From contig CP070836.1 in assembly GCA_020341795.1 (NCBI GenBank), positions 1,150,769 through 1,208,651 of the forward strand: DNA of 57,883 nucleotides, in the 5' to 3' direction. Shown here piece after piece: positions 10,486-50,956 of this stretch. Numbering within the stretch: position 1 is the first letter of the stretch; each line of letters begins with the position of its first letter. This DNA is from Thermoplasmatales archaeon (lineage in GTDB: Archaea > Thermoplasmatota > E2 > DHVEG-1). Under the pieces are notes generated by a model. The model saw nothing but the letters and a program-made list of their open reading frames with translations, was not told the DNA's origin and did no database searches. A program made the translations under genes and the position numbers.

Positions 10486-11463
10486 ATGGACATATTAAAA
10501 GATAAAGTTATACTACTAACTGGTGGTACAGGATCCTTTGGAAATAAATTCACTGAAATCGTTTTAAAAAAACATAAAATAAAAGCAATTCGTATCTTTT
10601 CTCGGGGGGAAAAAAAACAATATGATATGAGCCAAAAATTTGACGATGAAAGATTAAGATTTTTTATTGGAGATGTACGTGATAAAGAAAGACTTCATAG
10701 AGCTATGACTGATGTTGATATTGTTATTCATGCAGCAGCGTTAAAACAAGTTCCAGCATGTGAATATAATCCAATTGAAGCGATACGTACTAATATTGAT
10801 GGAGCCACAAATATCATAGATGCAGCTATTGACAACGGTGTTGATAAAGTAATGGCTATTAGCACAGATAAAGCAGTTCATCCTGTAAACTTGTATGGTG
10901 CAACAAAGATGACTGCTGAAAAACTGTTTATCCAAGGTAACTCATATTCTGGTAAATCTGATACCAAGTTTAGTTGTGTAAGATATGGAAATGTTATTGG
11001 AAGTCGAGGAAGTGTAATACCCTTATTTCTTGCTCAGAAGAAAAAAGGAATACTTACAATAACTGATGTGGAGATGACCCGTTTTTTCATAAAACTTGAA
11101 CAAGGAGTTGACCTTGTAATAAAAGGTATTGATAAAATGAAAGGCGGCGAGATTTTTATCCCTAAGATTCCAAGTATGAAAATAGTTGATATAGCAAAGG
11201 CAATTGCTCCTGATGCAAAAATAAAAATTATTGGAATACGTCCTGGTGAAAAAATCCATGAAATACTTCTCACAGAGGATGAAGCAAGACATAGCAAAGA
11301 ATTTCATGATTTTTTTGTAATTGAACCAGAGCATCCTTTTTGGACAGAAGATAAGCATATTAAAGGTGGTAAAAAGCTACCTAATAATTTCCGATATACT
11401 AGTGGAAATAATACTGAATGGGTTAATAAAAAACAGTTAATGAATTTTATTAAGGAATTATAA
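10486..11463 (+). CDS. pseB: UDP-GlcNAc 4,6-dehydratase (inverting), PseB
   Basis: This is the first step of pseudaminic acid synthesis: C4 oxidation, C6 dehydration and C5 epimerisation of UDP-GlcNAc. NADP-binding loop TGGTGSFG is at residues 12-19. The active-site stretch STDKAVHPVNLYGATK (126-141) holds Lys129, Tyr137 and Lys141, matching the PseB family. RYGNVIGSRGSVIPLF is the substrate-side signature. The ribosome site GAGGGATGG is close to the ATG. The TAA stop overlaps the pseC ATG by one base (TAATG), giving tight coupling. Length (325) is normal for PseB. Confidence 0.92.
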   Translation: MDILKDKVILLTGGTGSFGNKFTEIVLKKHKIKAIRIFSRGEKKQYDMSQKFDDERLRFFIGDVRDKERLHRAMTDVDIVIHAAALKQVPACEYNPIEAIRTNIDGATNIIDAAIDNGVDKVMAISTDKAVHPVNLYGATKMTAEKLFIQGNSYSGKSDTKFSCVRYGNVIGSRGSVIPLFLAQKKKGILTITDVEMTRFFIKLEQGVDLVIKGIDKMKGGEIFIPKIPSMKIVDIAKAIAPDAKIKIIGIRPGEKIHEILLTEDEARHSKEFHDFFVIEPEHPFWTEDKHIKGGKKLPNNFRYTSGNNTEWVNKKQLMNFIKEL

Positions 11464-12659
11464 TGTCCGAGACTCTTGCAATAAATGGTGGAAATCCTGT
11501 TAGAAAAAATTTTTTACCCTACAGTCAACAATGGATAGATGAAGAAGATATTAAGGCTGTAAATGATGCGTTAAAATCTGATTGGATAACTCAAGGACCA
11601 AAAATAGTTGAATTTGAAAAACTTGTATCCAAATTTTGCAATGTTAAATATGCTGTTGCTTTTTCATCGGGGACAACAGCCCTTCATGCGGCAGCATATT
11701 CAGCTGGAATTTTAAAAGGTGATGAAGCAATTACATCACCTATTACATTTGCAGCTAGTGCTAACTGTGTGTTGTATCAAGGTGGAAATGTTGTATTTGC
11801 AGATATAAAAAAAGACACTTACAATATTGATCCTATTGAAATTAAGAAAAAAATAAGCTCTAAAACAAAAGTTTTAATACCAGTAGATTACACTGGACAG
11901 CCTTGTGATATTGATGAGATAAATGATATTGCTGAAAAAAATAATTTAATTGTTATTGAAGATGCATCACATGCTATTGGTGCTGAATACAAAGATAAAA
12001 AAGTTGGTGGTCTTTCGGATTTATCAGTTTTCAGTTTTCACCCAGTTAAACATATTACTACTGGAGAAGGAGGGATGGTAATTACAAATAATAAAGAGCT
12101 TTTTGAAAAACTTCAGATTTTCAGAACTCATGGAATTACAAAGGATCCGGAAAAAATGAAACATAATGAAGGGGGATGGTACTATGAAATGCAACATCTA
12201 GGTTATAATTATAGAATTACTGATTTTCAATGTGCACTTGGTATTAGTCAGTTTAAAAAACTTAATCGTTTTGTGAAAAGAAGAAGAGACATTGTTAAAA
12301 AATATAACAAAGCTTTTGATCAATCCAAAGAAATAACTATACCATATGAAAAACCAGATGTTAAATCATCATATCATCTTTATATGATTCAGCTTGATTT
12401 TGAAATGTTAAAAGTTAATCGAAGGAAAATATTTGATGCGCTCAGAGCAGAAAATATTGGAGTTCACGTACATTATATACCTGTGCATTTACAACCATAT
12501 TACAAACAGATGTTTGGATATAAAAAAGGTGATTATCCAAATGCTGAAGAGTATTACAGTAATGCATTAACTCTTCCACTTTTCCCAAAAATGAAAGATT
12601 CGGATGTTGATGATGTAATAAATGCACTTGATAAAGTTATTAATTTTTACCGAAAATAA
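11463..12659 (+). CDS. pseC: UDP-4-amino-4,6-dideoxy-AltNAc aminotransferase, PseC
   Basis: This DegT-family PLP enzyme aminates C4 of the PseB product. The PLP Lys196 lies in FSFHPVKHITTGEGG, the form of this motif typical of PseC. VIEDASHAIGA supplies the aspartate that contacts the pyridine nitrogen, and SSGTTALHAA at about 69-78 the phosphate cup. Length (398) fits the family. It is fused by a one-base overlap to pseB. The next gene begins 18 nt later. Confidence 0.92.
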   Translation: MSETLAINGGNPVRKNFLPYSQQWIDEEDIKAVNDALKSDWITQGPKIVEFEKLVSKFCNVKYAVAFSSGTTALHAAAYSAGILKGDEAITSPITFAASANCVLYQGGNVVFADIKKDTYNIDPIEIKKKISSKTKVLIPVDYTGQPCDIDEINDIAEKNNLIVIEDASHAIGAEYKDKKVGGLSDLSVFSFHPVKHITTGEGGMVITNNKELFEKLQIFRTHGITKDPEKMKHNEGGWYYEMQHLGYNYRITDFQCALGISQFKKLNRFVKRRRDIVKKYNKAFDQSKEITIPYEKPDVKSSYHLYMIQLDFEMLKVNRRKIFDALRAENIGVHVHYIPVHLQPYYKQMFGYKKGDYPNAEEYYSNALTLPLFPKMKDSDVDDVINALDKVINFYRK

Positions 12660-12677: not shown

Positions 12678-13433
12678 ATGAATGTTGTAGCTATTATTCA
12701 AGCTCGAATGGGATCCACTCGTCTTCCAGAAAAAGCTTTAAAAAAGATACATGGTAAAACTATATTATGGCATATAATTAATCGGATTAATCACTCTAAG
12801 TTTATAGATGATGTTATCATTGCTTGCACTATAAACAATGAGGATAAAGCAATTGAGGATTTTGCTAAAAAAAATTTTATTAAGGTTTATCGTGGGAGTG
12901 TTGACGATATTGTTGACAGGTTTTATAATGCTGCAAAGAAAGTAGATGCAGATATAATTATTAGGTTATGGGGAGATTGTCCACTAGTTGATCCAGAGTT
13001 GATTGATAAAGCATTAAAGGTGTTTATTGAAAAAGGACTTGATTATTCAAATAATTTTAATCCTCCATCATATCCAGCTGGTTTAAACTTTGAAATCTAT
13101 AGTATTAAAACATTAGAAACAATATTGATTAACACAAAAGATCCCTTTTTTAGGGAATATCCTTTTGAATATGTTTATGCTTTTGAAAAATCCTTTAAAA
13201 CTTATTATGCTAAAAACAAAAAAAATCTCTCAAGCATTAATCTTACTGTTGATTATCAACAGGATTTCGAGTTGATTTCAAAGATATTTGAAAAATTATC
13301 AAAAAAAGATGAAATTTTTTATCTTGATGATATTGTAAATTTGATCAATAAAAATCCAGAATTACAATCTTTAAATATAGATTTAAAAAGAAATATTGAA
13401 TATGAACGCGATAAAAAAAAAAGACAAACATAG
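12678..13433 (+). CDS. spsF: SpsF-type cytidylyltransferase (likely CMP-pseudaminic acid synthetase role)
   Basis: The 251-residue nucleotidyltransferase starts VAIIQARMGSTRLPEKAL, the CTP-binding signature of the SpsF/NeuA-like group, and has WGDCPLVDPELID near residue 100 for metal binding. Classical PseF enzymes belong to a neighbouring family, so the activated sugar is inferred from position: it directly follows pseB-pseC and precedes pseG-pseI. It would convert the free nonulosonic acid to its CMP form for transfer. No other CMP-sugar synthetase is visible in the window. Confidence 0.75.
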   Translation: MNVVAIIQARMGSTRLPEKALKKIHGKTILWHIINRINHSKFIDDVIIACTINNEDKAIEDFAKKNFIKVYRGSVDDIVDRFYNAAKKVDADIIIRLWGDCPLVDPELIDKALKVFIEKGLDYSNNFNPPSYPAGLNFEIYSIKTLETILINTKDPFFREYPFEYVYAFEKSFKTYYAKNKKNLSSINLTVDYQQDFELISKIFEKLSKKDEIFYLDDIVNLINKNPELQSLNIDLKRNIEYERDKKKRQT

Positions 13434-13495
13434 AAATATTTTAATAGAAGACCTTAAAAAATAAGAATATATTCCGTTTTTCATCTTACACTATA

Positions 13496-13510
13496 GGAGG
13501 CGAGATTATT
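13496..13510 (+). promoter_or_regulatory. GGAGG ribosome site followed by ATT start codons
   Basis: GGAGG (13496-13500) is followed by CGAG and then ATT ATT. The reading frame of the amidotransferase is open from 13448 with no ATG, GTG or TTG until 13565. The ATT at 13508 is 7 nt from the ribosome site and is the best start. The ATG at 13565 would remove half of a zinc ribbon. Confidence 0.6.
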
Positions 13511-14665
13511 ACTTCTAATGGAAAACCACTATATGAAGATATAAATTATTGTCTTAGATGCTGTATGCCTGAAACAAATGAAGGCATAAAATTTGATGAC
13601 ATGGGGATATGCCAAGCCTGTCAATCACTAGAAGTTAAAATGCATATCGACTGGAAAAGCCGTCAAAAACAACTTGAAGAAATTTTAGATAAATATCGTG
13701 ATAAAGATGGTACCAACTATGATTGTATGGTACCTATAAGCGGAGGGAAAGACAGTGCTTTTCAATTACATGTTATAAAAAATATTTACAAAATGAAACC
13801 ACTTGCTGTGACTTTCAATCATAACTGGTATAGTGAAACTGGTAAATTTAATCTATGGAATATACTTGAAAAATTAAATATCGACCATATAATGTTTACA
13901 CCAAACAGAGAAATCGTTAACAAACTTGCAAAATACTCGTTAAAACAAATTGGTGATACATGCTGGCACTGTCATGCAGGTGTTGGAGCATTTGTTTTAC
14001 AGATTGCTTGTAAATTTAAAATTCCCTTAATTGTCTGGGGTGAATCTGTTTCAGAAGAATCAGGACGTTCTTCACATAAAGAACCAATAAAATATGATCG
14101 TGATACTTTTACTAAAATATCTGCAAAGGTTTACCCTGAGCAAATGGTCAATGATGAAATCAGTGCAAAGGATCTAAGACCTTTCGAACTGCCTAGCTAT
14201 GAGGATGTAGAAAAAGCAGGTATCATTGGTATCTATCTTTCAGATTACATGTTTTGGGATGCTGAACGTCAAGTTGAGTTTCTAAAAAAAGAATACGGTT
14301 GGAGAGAAGACAATGTCGAAGGAACTTATAAGGGATACAAGAGTGTTGAATGCATAATGCCAGGTATGCATGACTATACAAAGTTTTTAAAACGTGGATT
14401 TGGTCGTTCAACTGATCATGTATCGCAGGATACACGAGTTGGCCTTATGACTCGTGAGGAAGGTTTTGATATTATAAAAAAACATGACCCAAAAAGACCT
14501 GAAATATATGATTATTACTTGAAAATAACTGGATTAACTGATAAAGAATTTTACAAAATAATGGAGAATCATCGTTTCAAGGTTACAAAGAAACTACCAA
14601 GATTTAAAGACGATCCATATATCAAAAAAGATCTTCCAAAGAACTGGAATGGAGGAAAGAAATAA
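13508..14665 (+). CDS. pseA: PseA/WbpG-family N-acetyl-sugar amidotransferase
   Basis: This ATP-dependent PP-loop enzyme of the WbpG/PseA/AglX group converts an N-acetyl into an acetamidino group. The PP-loop is PISGGKDSAF. With the ATT start at 13508 the protein has 385 residues and a complete N-terminal zinc ribbon, Cys15/Cys18 and Cys35/Cys38; starting at the ATG at 13565 deletes the first pair. GDTCWHCHAGV and GESVSEESGR are further family motifs. Known partners are HisH/HisF-like subunits, which are absent here. Instead an amidase gene overlaps the stop by one base. In Campylobacter PseA acts on pseudaminic acid; the same substrate is inferred from the surrounding pse genes. Confidence 0.8.
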   Translation: MTSNGKPLYEDINYCLRCCMPETNEGIKFDDMGICQACQSLEVKMHIDWKSRQKQLEEILDKYRDKDGTNYDCMVPISGGKDSAFQLHVIKNIYKMKPLAVTFNHNWYSETGKFNLWNILEKLNIDHIMFTPNREIVNKLAKYSLKQIGDTCWHCHAGVGAFVLQIACKFKIPLIVWGESVSEESGRSSHKEPIKYDRDTFTKISAKVYPEQMVNDEISAKDLRPFELPSYEDVEKAGIIGIYLSDYMFWDAERQVEFLKKEYGWREDNVEGTYKGYKSVECIMPGMHDYTKFLKRGFGRSTDHVSQDTRVGLMTREEGFDIIKKHDPKRPEIYDYYLKITGLTDKEFYKIMENHRFKVTKKLPRFKDDPYIKKDLPKNWNGGKK

Positions 14666-16050
14666 TGCATAACCTCCATAAACTTACAGCAACAGATGCA
14701 GTGAATAAAATAAAATGTGGAAAAACAACTTGTATTGATCTTGCAAAGGATTGCCTCGATCATATTAACAATATCGATAAATTTGTTCATGCTTGGGTTT
14801 TAATCAATAAAGATTATGTATTTAAAAAGGCAAAAGAAATAGATGATAAAATTAAAAATGGTATAAATCCTGGTTTTTTACCTGGTATCCCAATTGGTGT
14901 CAAAGATAATTTTAACACCCATGTGCTTCCTACTCAGATGGGTAGCAGTCTCTGGTCAGGTTTCACACCGGAAAATGATGCTCGTGCGATTTTTAATCTT
15001 CGAATGAATGGAGCAATTGTCATGGGTAAAACCGTTACTGCAGAATTTGCAGTACATACTCCAAATGGTACAATTAATCCTCATAACTCTAATCATATAA
15101 CAGGTACATCCTCAAGTGGTTCTGCTGCAGCAGTTGCTACATTTATGGTACCTATTGCTCTTGCATCTCAAACCGCTGGTTCAATTATACGTCCTTCTAG
15201 TTTTTGCGGTGTTTATGGTTTTAAACCATCATTTGGTATTGTTCCACGGACAGGTATTTTAAAAACAACAGATAGCCTTGATACAGTTGGTTTAATGGCT
15301 CGTAATAATGAAGATGTAAGACTTGCATTTGACTCTCTACGTGAATATGGGGCCGATTATCCTTATATCTATCAATATCTTGAGGATCCTAAGAGGCAAA
15401 CTCGGACTAATAGACCTTGGAGGATAGCACTTATAAAAACACCTGTTAGAGAAAATGAATCACCTGCGGTTAAACAAGCATTAAATAAATTTGCTAACGA
15501 TATAATTTATAATAACATCTTAGTTGAAGAAGTAGAATTACCCTCTGAAGTTAATAAAGCACATGATGTTCATAAAACGATTTATGATAAAACGCTTTCA
15601 TATTATTTTCAATCTGAATTTGCAAAAAATAAAGATGAAATCAGCGATATAATGCTTGAGCTTATAAATCATGGAAGAACAATTACTCTTAATGATTATA
15701 AAAATGCGTTAAAAGAGCAATATAAAATTAGTAAGGTTTTAGATGGTTTTTTTGAAAAACATGATATAATATTAGTACCATCGACTTCTACACCAGCACC
15801 TAAACTTGGGGAAAAAGAAAAACCTGATACTAGTCTTATTTGGACGTTTTGTGGAAATCCTACATTGAGTGTTCCTCAGTTTAAAACATCTGACGAGCTT
15901 CCATATGGTCTGCAAGTTGTTGCTAGAAAATATAATGATTACCTGCTACTAAACTTTGTGGACATGTTAAGGGAGGAGCATCATATAATTAAGGATATTA
16001 CTATGATGCCAAAATATTTAGAGAAATCATTAAAAGTAACAGCAGGTTAA
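14665..16050 (+). CDS. Amidase-signature enzyme (GatA-like), coupled to the amidotransferase
   Basis: The 461-residue protein carries the whole Ser-cisSer-Lys triad: Lys80 in GIPIGVKDNF, Ser149 in GTSSSGSAA and nucleophile Ser173 in QTAGSIIRP, with the spacing of the family. It is cytoplasmic. The ATG overlaps the amidotransferase TAA by one base (TAATG), so the two proteins are made together. GatA releases ammonia for its partner in GatCAB. By analogy this amidase could feed ammonia to the PP-loop enzyme in place of HisH (inference). No GatB or GatC is nearby, so it is not the tRNA amidotransferase. A stand-alone amide hydrolase is the alternative. Confidence 0.85.
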   Translation: MHNLHKLTATDAVNKIKCGKTTCIDLAKDCLDHINNIDKFVHAWVLINKDYVFKKAKEIDDKIKNGINPGFLPGIPIGVKDNFNTHVLPTQMGSSLWSGFTPENDARAIFNLRMNGAIVMGKTVTAEFAVHTPNGTINPHNSNHITGTSSSGSAAAVATFMVPIALASQTAGSIIRPSSFCGVYGFKPSFGIVPRTGILKTTDSLDTVGLMARNNEDVRLAFDSLREYGADYPYIYQYLEDPKRQTRTNRPWRIALIKTPVRENESPAVKQALNKFANDIIYNNILVEEVELPSEVNKAHDVHKTIYDKTLSYYFQSEFAKNKDEISDIMLELINHGRTITLNDYKNALKEQYKISKVLDGFFEKHDIILVPSTSTPAPKLGEKEKPDTSLIWTFCGNPTLSVPQFKTSDELPYGLQVVARKYNDYLLLNFVDMLREEHHIIKDITMMPKYLEKSLKVTAG

Positions 16051-49466: not shown

Positions 49467-50927
49467 TCAATATATAATTTGAATTAGATTAAATAATTTA
49501 AAGAAAAATGAATTAAAAGATATTTTATCTCTTGGCATAATCATAGTATGTGTTGTCCAGTCACTTTCCTCACCATTAATATCTTTAGATTTAGCTTTTA
49601 TCAAATAATTCATTTTGTTTTCCCATGTGTGATTTAAAAATATTTCAATACCAGATTCATATGGACCAAACCAACCTTCTTCTGTACCGTCATCCCAATC
49701 AACCCATAGAAAAATATTATCATCATTTGGATCATACGATCTAAATACATAATCATATTGTACACCAGGATTCCCATGTTTAGGTCCAGTAATCTTTGGT
49801 GGATTAGGACTACTAATAGGATTTATAATAATTTCATCAAAAACGGAGCCATTTATATAGTAAGCAGAGAATCTTAGTGAATTTTCCGAATTATATTCAA
49901 GTAAACAGTAATGATACGCTTTTTTACTTATGTTTACAAACCAATCATCACCAGGGTTATATAAAGGAGCACCAGCACCACCTGTAACAACATAATATAT
50001 ATTTTCTATCTTATCTGTTCTCTGATAAAAATGACAATGAGATTGAACAACAAGTCTAACATTGTATTTAATAAACAAAGGTTCCCATATTACTTTAATA
50101 TCTGTTCTTGGTGAATGACCACCTTTACAATAGATAGGTTCATGGAAACAAACAATTCTAAATAAAGCACTTGTAGTTGCTAAATCATTTACTAACCATT
50201 TATATTGAGATGTACCCTTACCAAATGGCTCATATTGATCAAGAATAATAAAGTGACAAGGTCCATAATCAAAACTATACCATTTTTCGTTGTTTGGAAG
50301 GGAAAAAATTTCAAAATATCGATCACCATTTTTCTCATGATTACCAAGAACTCCAAAAACAGTACTATTCTGCATCAAAGGCATCATAAGATTTAACCAG
50401 CTGTCCCATTGAGTTAAAATCCTTCCATCATCAACCATATCACCCCCATGAATAACAAACAGAGATGATCCATTATTAACAGCGTTAGCAACAATTTTTG
50501 CTTGTTCCCAATTATCCCACATCCCTCTACTATCACCAATAAATGCACATTTAAAACTATTATTATCATAAAAATAACTGCCTAGCTTAAATTCAAAATC
50601 ATCTGATATTATACCATTAGAAACAACTCTATAATGACCATGATTAAAACTAGGTTTTATAATAATTTCATGATGATTACAATTTGATAGTCCCTCTTTT
50701 ATATATCCATAAGTGCTATCTTGTCCATATTCAACATAATTATTCATAGTATCTGAATCTGTCTCCCAAACAATAGTAATGTTCTCATCTGTAAAATTCT
50801 GCGTGTACGGGCCAAATGTTATCATAGATCCTGATTTTGTAATTTTATTGGAGCTAGAATTTACTATACCTGAATAAAGAATAATAACAGCTATAAAAAT
50901 TATCTTTAAACATAATTTTTTTTTAAT
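49467..50927 (-). CDS. Secreted purple-acid-phosphatase-like metallophosphoesterase, ATT start
   Basis: The calcineurin-like core has FIGDSRGMWDN, HGGDMVDDG, VLGNHEKNG, CFHEPIY and QSHCHFYQR, giving all metal ligands. A fibronectin-III-like domain precedes it (about residues 35-110) and a PKD/Ig-like domain follows (DPNDDNIFLWVDWDDG). The first ATG (50825) would drop a fine signal peptide. Upstream in frame are KKKLCLK and a hydrophobic run, then only ATT codons next to GGAGG (50938-50934). With ATT at 50927 (6-nt spacing) the protein has 486 residues and is exported. Substrate is unknown. Confidence 0.8.
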   Translation of the reverse strand: MKKKLCLKIIFIAVIILYSGIVNSSSNKITKSGSMITFGPYTQNFTDENITIVWETDSDTMNNYVEYGQDSTYGYIKEGLSNCNHHEIIIKPSFNHGHYRVVSNGIISDDFEFKLGSYFYDNNSFKCAFIGDSRGMWDNWEQAKIVANAVNNGSSLFVIHGGDMVDDGRILTQWDSWLNLMMPLMQNSTVFGVLGNHEKNGDRYFEIFSLPNNEKWYSFDYGPCHFIILDQYEPFGKGTSQYKWLVNDLATTSALFRIVCFHEPIYCKGGHSPRTDIKVIWEPLFIKYNVRLVVQSHCHFYQRTDKIENIYYVVTGGAGAPLYNPGDDWFVNISKKAYHYCLLEYNSENSLRFSAYYINGSVFDEIIINPISSPNPPKITGPKHGNPGVQYDYVFRSYDPNDDNIFLWVDWDDGTEEGWFGPYESGIEIFLNHTWENKMNYLIKAKSKDINGEESDWTTHTMIMPRDKISFNSFFFKLFNLIQIIY

Positions 50928-50956
50928 AATATACCTCCATCAATAATAATATAAAT

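Follow-up and report, generated by a model that had tools for sequence, protein, structure and literature searches.

The window, by which we mean the whole 57,883 nt stretch of DNA that was analysed, harbours on its forward strand a cluster of genes for the synthesis of modified sugars. PseB, a UDP-GlcNAc 4,6-dehydratase (10486..11463; TIGR03589 above cut-off), is followed by the PseC aminotransferase (11463..12659; TIGR03588 above cut-off) and an SpsF/PseF-like cytidylyltransferase (12678..13433), which matches Pfam CTP_transf_3 above its cut-off and the PseF model below its cut-off. Next comes an N-acetyl sugar amidotransferase of the WbuX/PseA type (13508..14665), identified by NCBIfam TIGR03573 and by alignment and comprising 385 aa when read from an ATT codon; its stop codon is overlapped by a GatA-like amidase gene (14665..16050, forward strand). 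The TIGR03573 score of the amidotransferase read from 13508 is 357.9 bits, compared with a cut-off of 203.2, and the match covers positions 2-344 of the 344 in the profile. No PseA-specific model matched this protein; genes for PseB and PseC lie in the same cluster.

The enzyme thus resembles WbuX, as defined by TIGR03573, in scoring above the cut-off, in matching over its full length and in possessing a zinc ribbon, but differs in its start codon and in its constant GatA-like amidase neighbour. WbuX genes are generally found beside a HisH/HisF-like pair. A single scan of genome contigs retrieved 20 relatives, 57-65% identical to the window protein, from several bacterial phyla and two archaea; the amidase gene lies 3' of the amidotransferase gene in 18 of these, and in the remaining two the contig breaks off inside the first gene. 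In Solidesulfovibrio (L025) and Desulfarculus (L027), the two genes form a single reading frame. This neighbourhood and fusion suggest that the amidase serves as the ammonia source of this WbuX/PseA subfamily, replacing a glutaminase.

The amidotransferase frame is open from 13448 to 14662, being closed upstream by TAG (13445-13447) and terminated by TAA (14663-14665). The 39 forward-strand codons from 13448 to 13564 include no ATG, GTG or TTG, such that the first canonical codon is the ATG at 13565..13567, which has no Shine-Dalgarno sequence. Indeed, all three forward-strand frames are free of ATG, GTG, TTG and CTG between the stop codon at 13431-13433 and position 13517. Inspection of the same region identified a Shine-Dalgarno sequence, AGGAGG (13495..13500, forward strand), followed by two adjacent in-frame ATT codons: the proposed start at 13508..13510, 7 nt past the site, and a less likely neighbour at 13505-13507, at a spacing of 4 nt. 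Two claims of the initial annotation, that the frame is open to 13448 without a canonical codon before 13565 and that GGAGG at 13496-13500 precedes ATT 13508 by 7 nt, therefore held, the full site being one nucleotide longer. The gene accordingly presents an AUU behind a Shine-Dalgarno sequence in the absence of a usable canonical start. Two further candidates could be rejected. A fusion to, or frameshift from, the cytidylyltransferase is precluded as the amidotransferase frame is closed by the TAG at 13445, the -1 frame meets TAA at 13442 and the +1 frame ends at TAA 13462; initiation at the out-of-frame ATG 13518 would yield MENHYMKI and then a stop, not the conserved GKPL segment described below. 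A run of ten A residues (13413-13422) was also observed near the 3' end of the cytidylyltransferase gene. One fewer A would extend that frame to TAA 13462, adding around 10 residues, and the run may represent a homopolymer error or slippage.

The choice between the two ATT codons can be informed by the spacing used elsewhere in the genome. In the sampled host genome, 81 ATG starts follow a Shine-Dalgarno match of at least 6 nt, and their register spacings range from 5 to 13 nt, with 7 nt found at 14 and 4 nt at none. ATT 13508 is consequently preferred over ATT 13505, as the former's spacing is common among ATG genes and the latter's is absent. A non-canonical start at ATT 13505 has in its favour that the codon is in frame and adjacent to ATT 13508; the absence of its spacing from all 81 ATG genes, and the alignment of relatives to 13508, leave this alternative virtually excluded.

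Further evidence for an upstream start comes from the protein itself. When the gene is read from ATT, the product has the four-cysteine N-terminal zinc ribbon of the TIGR03573 type, CxxC-x16-CxxC (13550..13621, forward strand), which is cut in two by ATG 13565; with residues numbered from 13508, its cysteines are C15, C18, C35 and C38. These four residues and C19 are invariant in an alignment of 11 sequences, consisting of the window protein and 10 of its 20 relatives. The initial annotation's contention that the zinc ribbon requires codons 5' of ATG 13565 therefore held, since the invariant C15 and C18 are lost from a protein starting there. Furthermore, a canonical codon precedes the first cysteine in every one of the 20 relatives, and in four it coincides with the column of ATT 13508: ATG in L026, L027 and L034, and TTG in L025. 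A check for relatives with ATG at this codon, proposed in the initial annotation, was hence positive. In another relative, L039, the start lies one codon later (GGAG-ATC-ATT-ATG). The residues Gly5-Lys6-Pro7-Leu8, encoded 5' of ATG 13565, are shared with relatives from other phyla (L025 and L026), and the resemblance of the upstream segment, comprising GKPL and the alignment of residue 1 with the start codons of L025, L026, L027 and L034, exceeds what chance would produce.

Together, the zinc-ribbon cysteines and the conserved upstream segment place the start upstream of 13520, and ATT 13508 is chosen because it is the sole codon in that region that combines a common spacing with the correct alignment column. 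Initiation at ATG 13565, yielding 366 aa that lack the N-terminal half of the zinc ribbon, is supported by this being the first canonical codon of the frame; however, such a start lacks a Shine-Dalgarno sequence, removes the invariant C15, R17, C18 and C19, and leaves both the conserved GKPL segment and the AGGAGG unexplained, making it a very improbable alternative. Anatomy, alignment and spacing therefore agree on ATT 13508 as the best start, as the initial annotation had proposed, and we consider this likely in the absence of protein-level or ribosome data. That initiation occurs directly at this codon, with methionine as the first residue, is inferred, without proof at the protein level.

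The amidotransferase gene has the appearance of an acquisition, with its best relatives (57-65% identical) in bacteria and other archaea, and homologues within the host's own family (f1) no more than 39% identical. No close copy was found in a second genome, and one family member (G001) has no homologue at all; the argument from conservation is thus only indirect for codon 13508 itself. A zinc-ribbon motif search of the distant WbuX loci within the family located none of 27, the motif as written being too strict. That the closest relatives lie outside the family and others keep ATG or TTG could be taken to indicate a recent ATG to ATT mutation that weakened or crippled the gene, leaving a pseudogene in the making. 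Against this, the remainder of the frame is intact, all the invariant residues and the AGGAGG have been kept, and the overlap of the amidase gene with the amidotransferase stop codon persists, such that recent start loss appears very unlikely. Functional initiation at ATT 13508 remains the preferred reading.

The window contains a second gene of this kind on the reverse strand: a calcineurin-like phosphoesterase with a signal-peptide-like N-terminus (49467..50927), which starts at ATT 50927 behind GGAGGT (50933..50938) and has its next canonical codon, the ATG picked by ORF finders, 34 codons downstream. The frequency of such starts was assessed with our own script in 41 stretches of the host genome, consisting of 40 of 20 kb plus the window, which amount to 858 kb (48%) and 651 ORFs. 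Orphan sites were defined as those with a Shine-Dalgarno match of at least 6 nt to AGGAGGTGAT at a register spacing of 5-10, no in-frame ATG, GTG or TTG upstream and the next such codon at least 8 codons on. Fourteen genes fitted this rule, compared with a scale of 82 genes in the same sample having a canonical start behind a Shine-Dalgarno sequence of the same type. At 11 of the 14, a near-cognate codon (one mismatch to ATG) was in register, against around 3.6 expected from codon frequencies (binomial tail 5e-5); the codons include ATT, ATC, ATA, CTG and ACG. The remaining three orphan sites lacked a near-cognate codon, and one near-cognate case (ATC, L087) sits at the limit of the permitted spacings.

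The same rule flagged two genes, one of them near-cognate, in 400 kb of Escherichia coli K-12, and two, neither near-cognate, in 311 kb from relatives of the same order, class or phylum. In small samples from other members of family f1, near-cognate codons were present at 2/2 orphan sites in G001, 1/3 in G002, 0/1 in G006 and 1/3 in G012, and no orphan sites were found in those of G034 and G023. The effect is seen only at orphan sites: an earlier scan that lacked the rule excluding canonical codons detected no enrichment of ATT behind 5-nt Shine-Dalgarno matches (20/695 for ATT versus 20/563 for AAT). The scan is small, home-made and of low sensitivity, with E. coli infC (in L202) not being flagged.

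Beyond the two window genes, host genes with family support include the following: ATT starts in TrmJ (L061 18318), an OB-fold/zinc-ribbon protein (L085 2698) and a C25 peptidase with a signal peptide (L081 12159); ATC in a B12 radical SAM protein (L063, minus strand, 5457); CTG in the ribosomal protein S17e (L087 16305); ACG in a PAS/HAMP protein (L086 18157); and ATA in a NosD-like protein (L088 1381). UvrB, with CTG (L057, minus strand, 8725), falls outside the strict rule owing to a Shine-Dalgarno match of 5 nt. Several of these starts are anchored by protein profiles, with residue 1 of S17e corresponding to position 1 of NF002242, residue 5 of TrmJ to position 6 of TIGR00050 and residue 3 of UvrB to position 1 of NF003673; the UvrB CTG column is ATG in G002. 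A DtdA-like gene (ATA, L066), a dipeptidase (ATA, L061) and a glycosyltransferase (L050) were dropped on account of a canonical codon upstream or nearby and enter no count. The initial annotation had called ATT starts rare outside infC in bacteria; in this host the ATT start is no isolated case, given the many other near-cognate starts in its genome and family, some of which are conserved across genera.

This conservation is most extensive in S17e, which was sought in 60 relatives and matched in 58, with starts read in 32 rows (30 loci and two others; one place in L073 was not located). The 11 rows from family f1 comprise nine CTG starts and two ATG starts, the latter (the host's own L219 and G032) representing another copy type; the seven rows from the same order consist of six TTG and one GTG, and the 14 from the same class of ten TTG and four ATG. 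In the host (G000), G007 and G034, the entire S17e frame is devoid of ATG, GTG and TTG, whether upstream or downstream, and G007 and G034 each have a single S17e match. There is likewise no canonical codon upstream in G014 or G018; one exists in G001, G004, G012 and G013, without a Shine-Dalgarno sequence of its own. Among the phylum's 389 genomes, the pattern GGTGAT-N3/4-CTG followed by an S17e start was present in 31, all of which are among the 45 from family f1 (17 genera), and in none of the 344 others; the reversed pattern had no matches in the 389 genomes. As the pattern demands CTG, the 14 unmatched genomes of the family may have other codons or contexts. Outside the family, 17 of the 21 order and class relatives were observed to have TTG or GTG, mostly with a GGTGAT site, and it is from this conserved non-AUG start that the CTG of family f1 seemingly descends. 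Three S17e genes are present both in the host genome (L219, L087 and a third at C1:423920) and in G001, most relatives having one.

Similarly, TrmJ was matched in 54 of the 60 relatives in which it was sought, and 31 rows were read. ATT, ATA or ATC occupies one fixed column in 14 of the 18 family rows, and in eight of the 18 (G000, G003, G007, G008, G021, G024, G025 and G032) there is no canonical codon from the opening of the frame to the catalytic motif. All eight of these have ATT or ATA at the fixed column, and seven have a GGTGA Shine-Dalgarno sequence. The family exceptions (G006, G013, G023 and G029) instead have an upstream ATG or a GTG. In the 13 rows from outside the family, the fixed column holds ATT in one (G036) and ATG in three order or class relatives (G041, G042 and G055); in seven others the ATG comes a codon further on, and the remaining two carry different codons. 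The TGA of the GGTGA site often closes the frame just before the start, raising the possibility that reinitiation after the upstream stop aids TrmJ translation. In the leaders of several family TrmJ genes (L260, L263 and L265), the Shine-Dalgarno region GGATGGTGA was seen to carry an out-of-frame ATG opening a mini-ORF that terminates at the TrmJ start or close to it, such that translational coupling is conceivable; this arrangement is absent from the host's own genome. RpoH, also matched in 54 of 60 relatives, with 30 rows read, has ATC behind AGGAGG at a spacing of 8 in G006, G012, G023 and G029, representing three genera; three of these four rows lack an upstream canonical codon, and in all remaining rows a canonical codon precedes the motif. 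Recurrence of the same near-cognate start column in independent genomes, taken as a test, was thus fulfilled by S17e, TrmJ and RpoH.

Sequencing error can be ruled out as a general explanation, because near-cognate codons recur in the same columns of independent assemblies. It needs to be considered separately for codon 13508, where the organism might really have ATG (or GTG). A single base change would suffice, there is no second copy of the locus with which to compare, and L026, L027 and L034 carry ATG at the column. In addition, 67 runs of exactly 100 N were found in 27 of the 40 stretches of the host's single contig, indicating that it is a joined scaffold chain rather than a closed genome, of the metagenome type. 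However, a similar pattern is found in many other host genes and at fixed columns of independent assemblies, and no split genes were detected among 126 genes with relatives in the host sample, which argues against a poor assembly. An error at this codon is therefore unlikely. The frames, Shine-Dalgarno sites, alignments and conservation across assemblies are established observations; that ATT 13508 is a translation start, and part of a family-wide use of near-cognate codons aided by strong Shine-Dalgarno sequences, is the probable interpretation, for which there are no protein or ribosome data.

AUU starts are otherwise familiar from isolated bacterial genes, infC and pcnB, the former being autoregulated by IF3. 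The amidotransferase gene is comparable to these in being a functional gene with an AUU start behind a Shine-Dalgarno sequence; by contrast, the host has near-cognate starts in many unrelated genes. The IF3 autoregulation feature is not met, as this gene is not infC and the likeness extends to the codon alone. Moreover, no infC was found in the host genome by a search that, among 14 control genomes, detected it in 10. The host is an uncultured archaeon of family f1 rather than a bacterium, as is evident from the failure to find infC and the presence of genes for aIF1, S17e and RpoH; the comparison drawn in the initial annotation, that ATT starts are rare outside infC in bacteria, is hence merely an analogy. 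The archaeal factor aIF1 was considered as an odd-start gene by analogy with infC and rejected, since it starts at ATG in the host and family genomes and encodes an ordinary-looking protein. No changed initiation factor was seen, the aIF1 protein being without striking change, and neither 16S rRNA nor the initiator tRNA was found in the host genome.

A review of archaeal initiation names only AUG, GUG and UUG as start codons, with neither AUU nor CUG appearing in its text (PMC7531240). The host family shares the Shine-Dalgarno sequences, spacing and aIF1 of this Shine-Dalgarno-led system, but differs in having AUU, AUA, AUC, CUG and ACG at the start position. In a survey of 36 prokaryote groups, two of 61,358 ancestral AUG starts were found to have changed to CUG and one to AUU (PMC5622118); AUU and CUG starts are accordingly known there too, whereas the S17e CUG is common to 31 of 45 genomes in family f1. 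No reports of near-cognate starts of this kind in archaea were found in the open-access literature searched.

We propose that ATT 13508 is one case of a family-wide habit, in which AUU, AUA, AUC, CUG and sometimes ACG would start ordinary genes furnished with good Shine-Dalgarno sequences. The strong AGGAGG would position the archaeal 30S subunit so that its P site holds AUU, and the CAU anticodon of Met-tRNAi may pair with this codon despite the third-base mismatch, the cost of which is inferred to be offset by reduced stringency or by strong Shine-Dalgarno pairing. The near-cognate starts of S17e, TrmJ and RpoH appear to have been retained across several or many genera, and in such genes a weaker start is probably either tolerated or a means of keeping expression low or regulated. 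A bolder reading, that a whole archaeal family has widened its set of starts from AUG, GUG and UUG to include AUU, AUA, AUC, CUG and, rarely, ACG, in ordinary as well as essential genes, is one towards which the balance of evidence tips, if not by much.

Gene finders have AUG, GUG and UUG built in as the archaeal starts. If the near-cognate starts are real, standard programs would miss or truncate the proteins concerned, and if the family keeps CUG, AUU, AUA and AUC starts, its proteomes would be mis-annotated, with short ribosomal proteins lost and N-termini cut. Such genes would also provide natural material on how aIF1, the initiator tRNA and Shine-Dalgarno strength set the stringency of start-codon selection, and on whether control is exerted through weak starts, as is the case for infC. 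The conserved weak starts, if genuine, would imply either a relaxed proofreading of start codons or the control of translation through start-codon strength.
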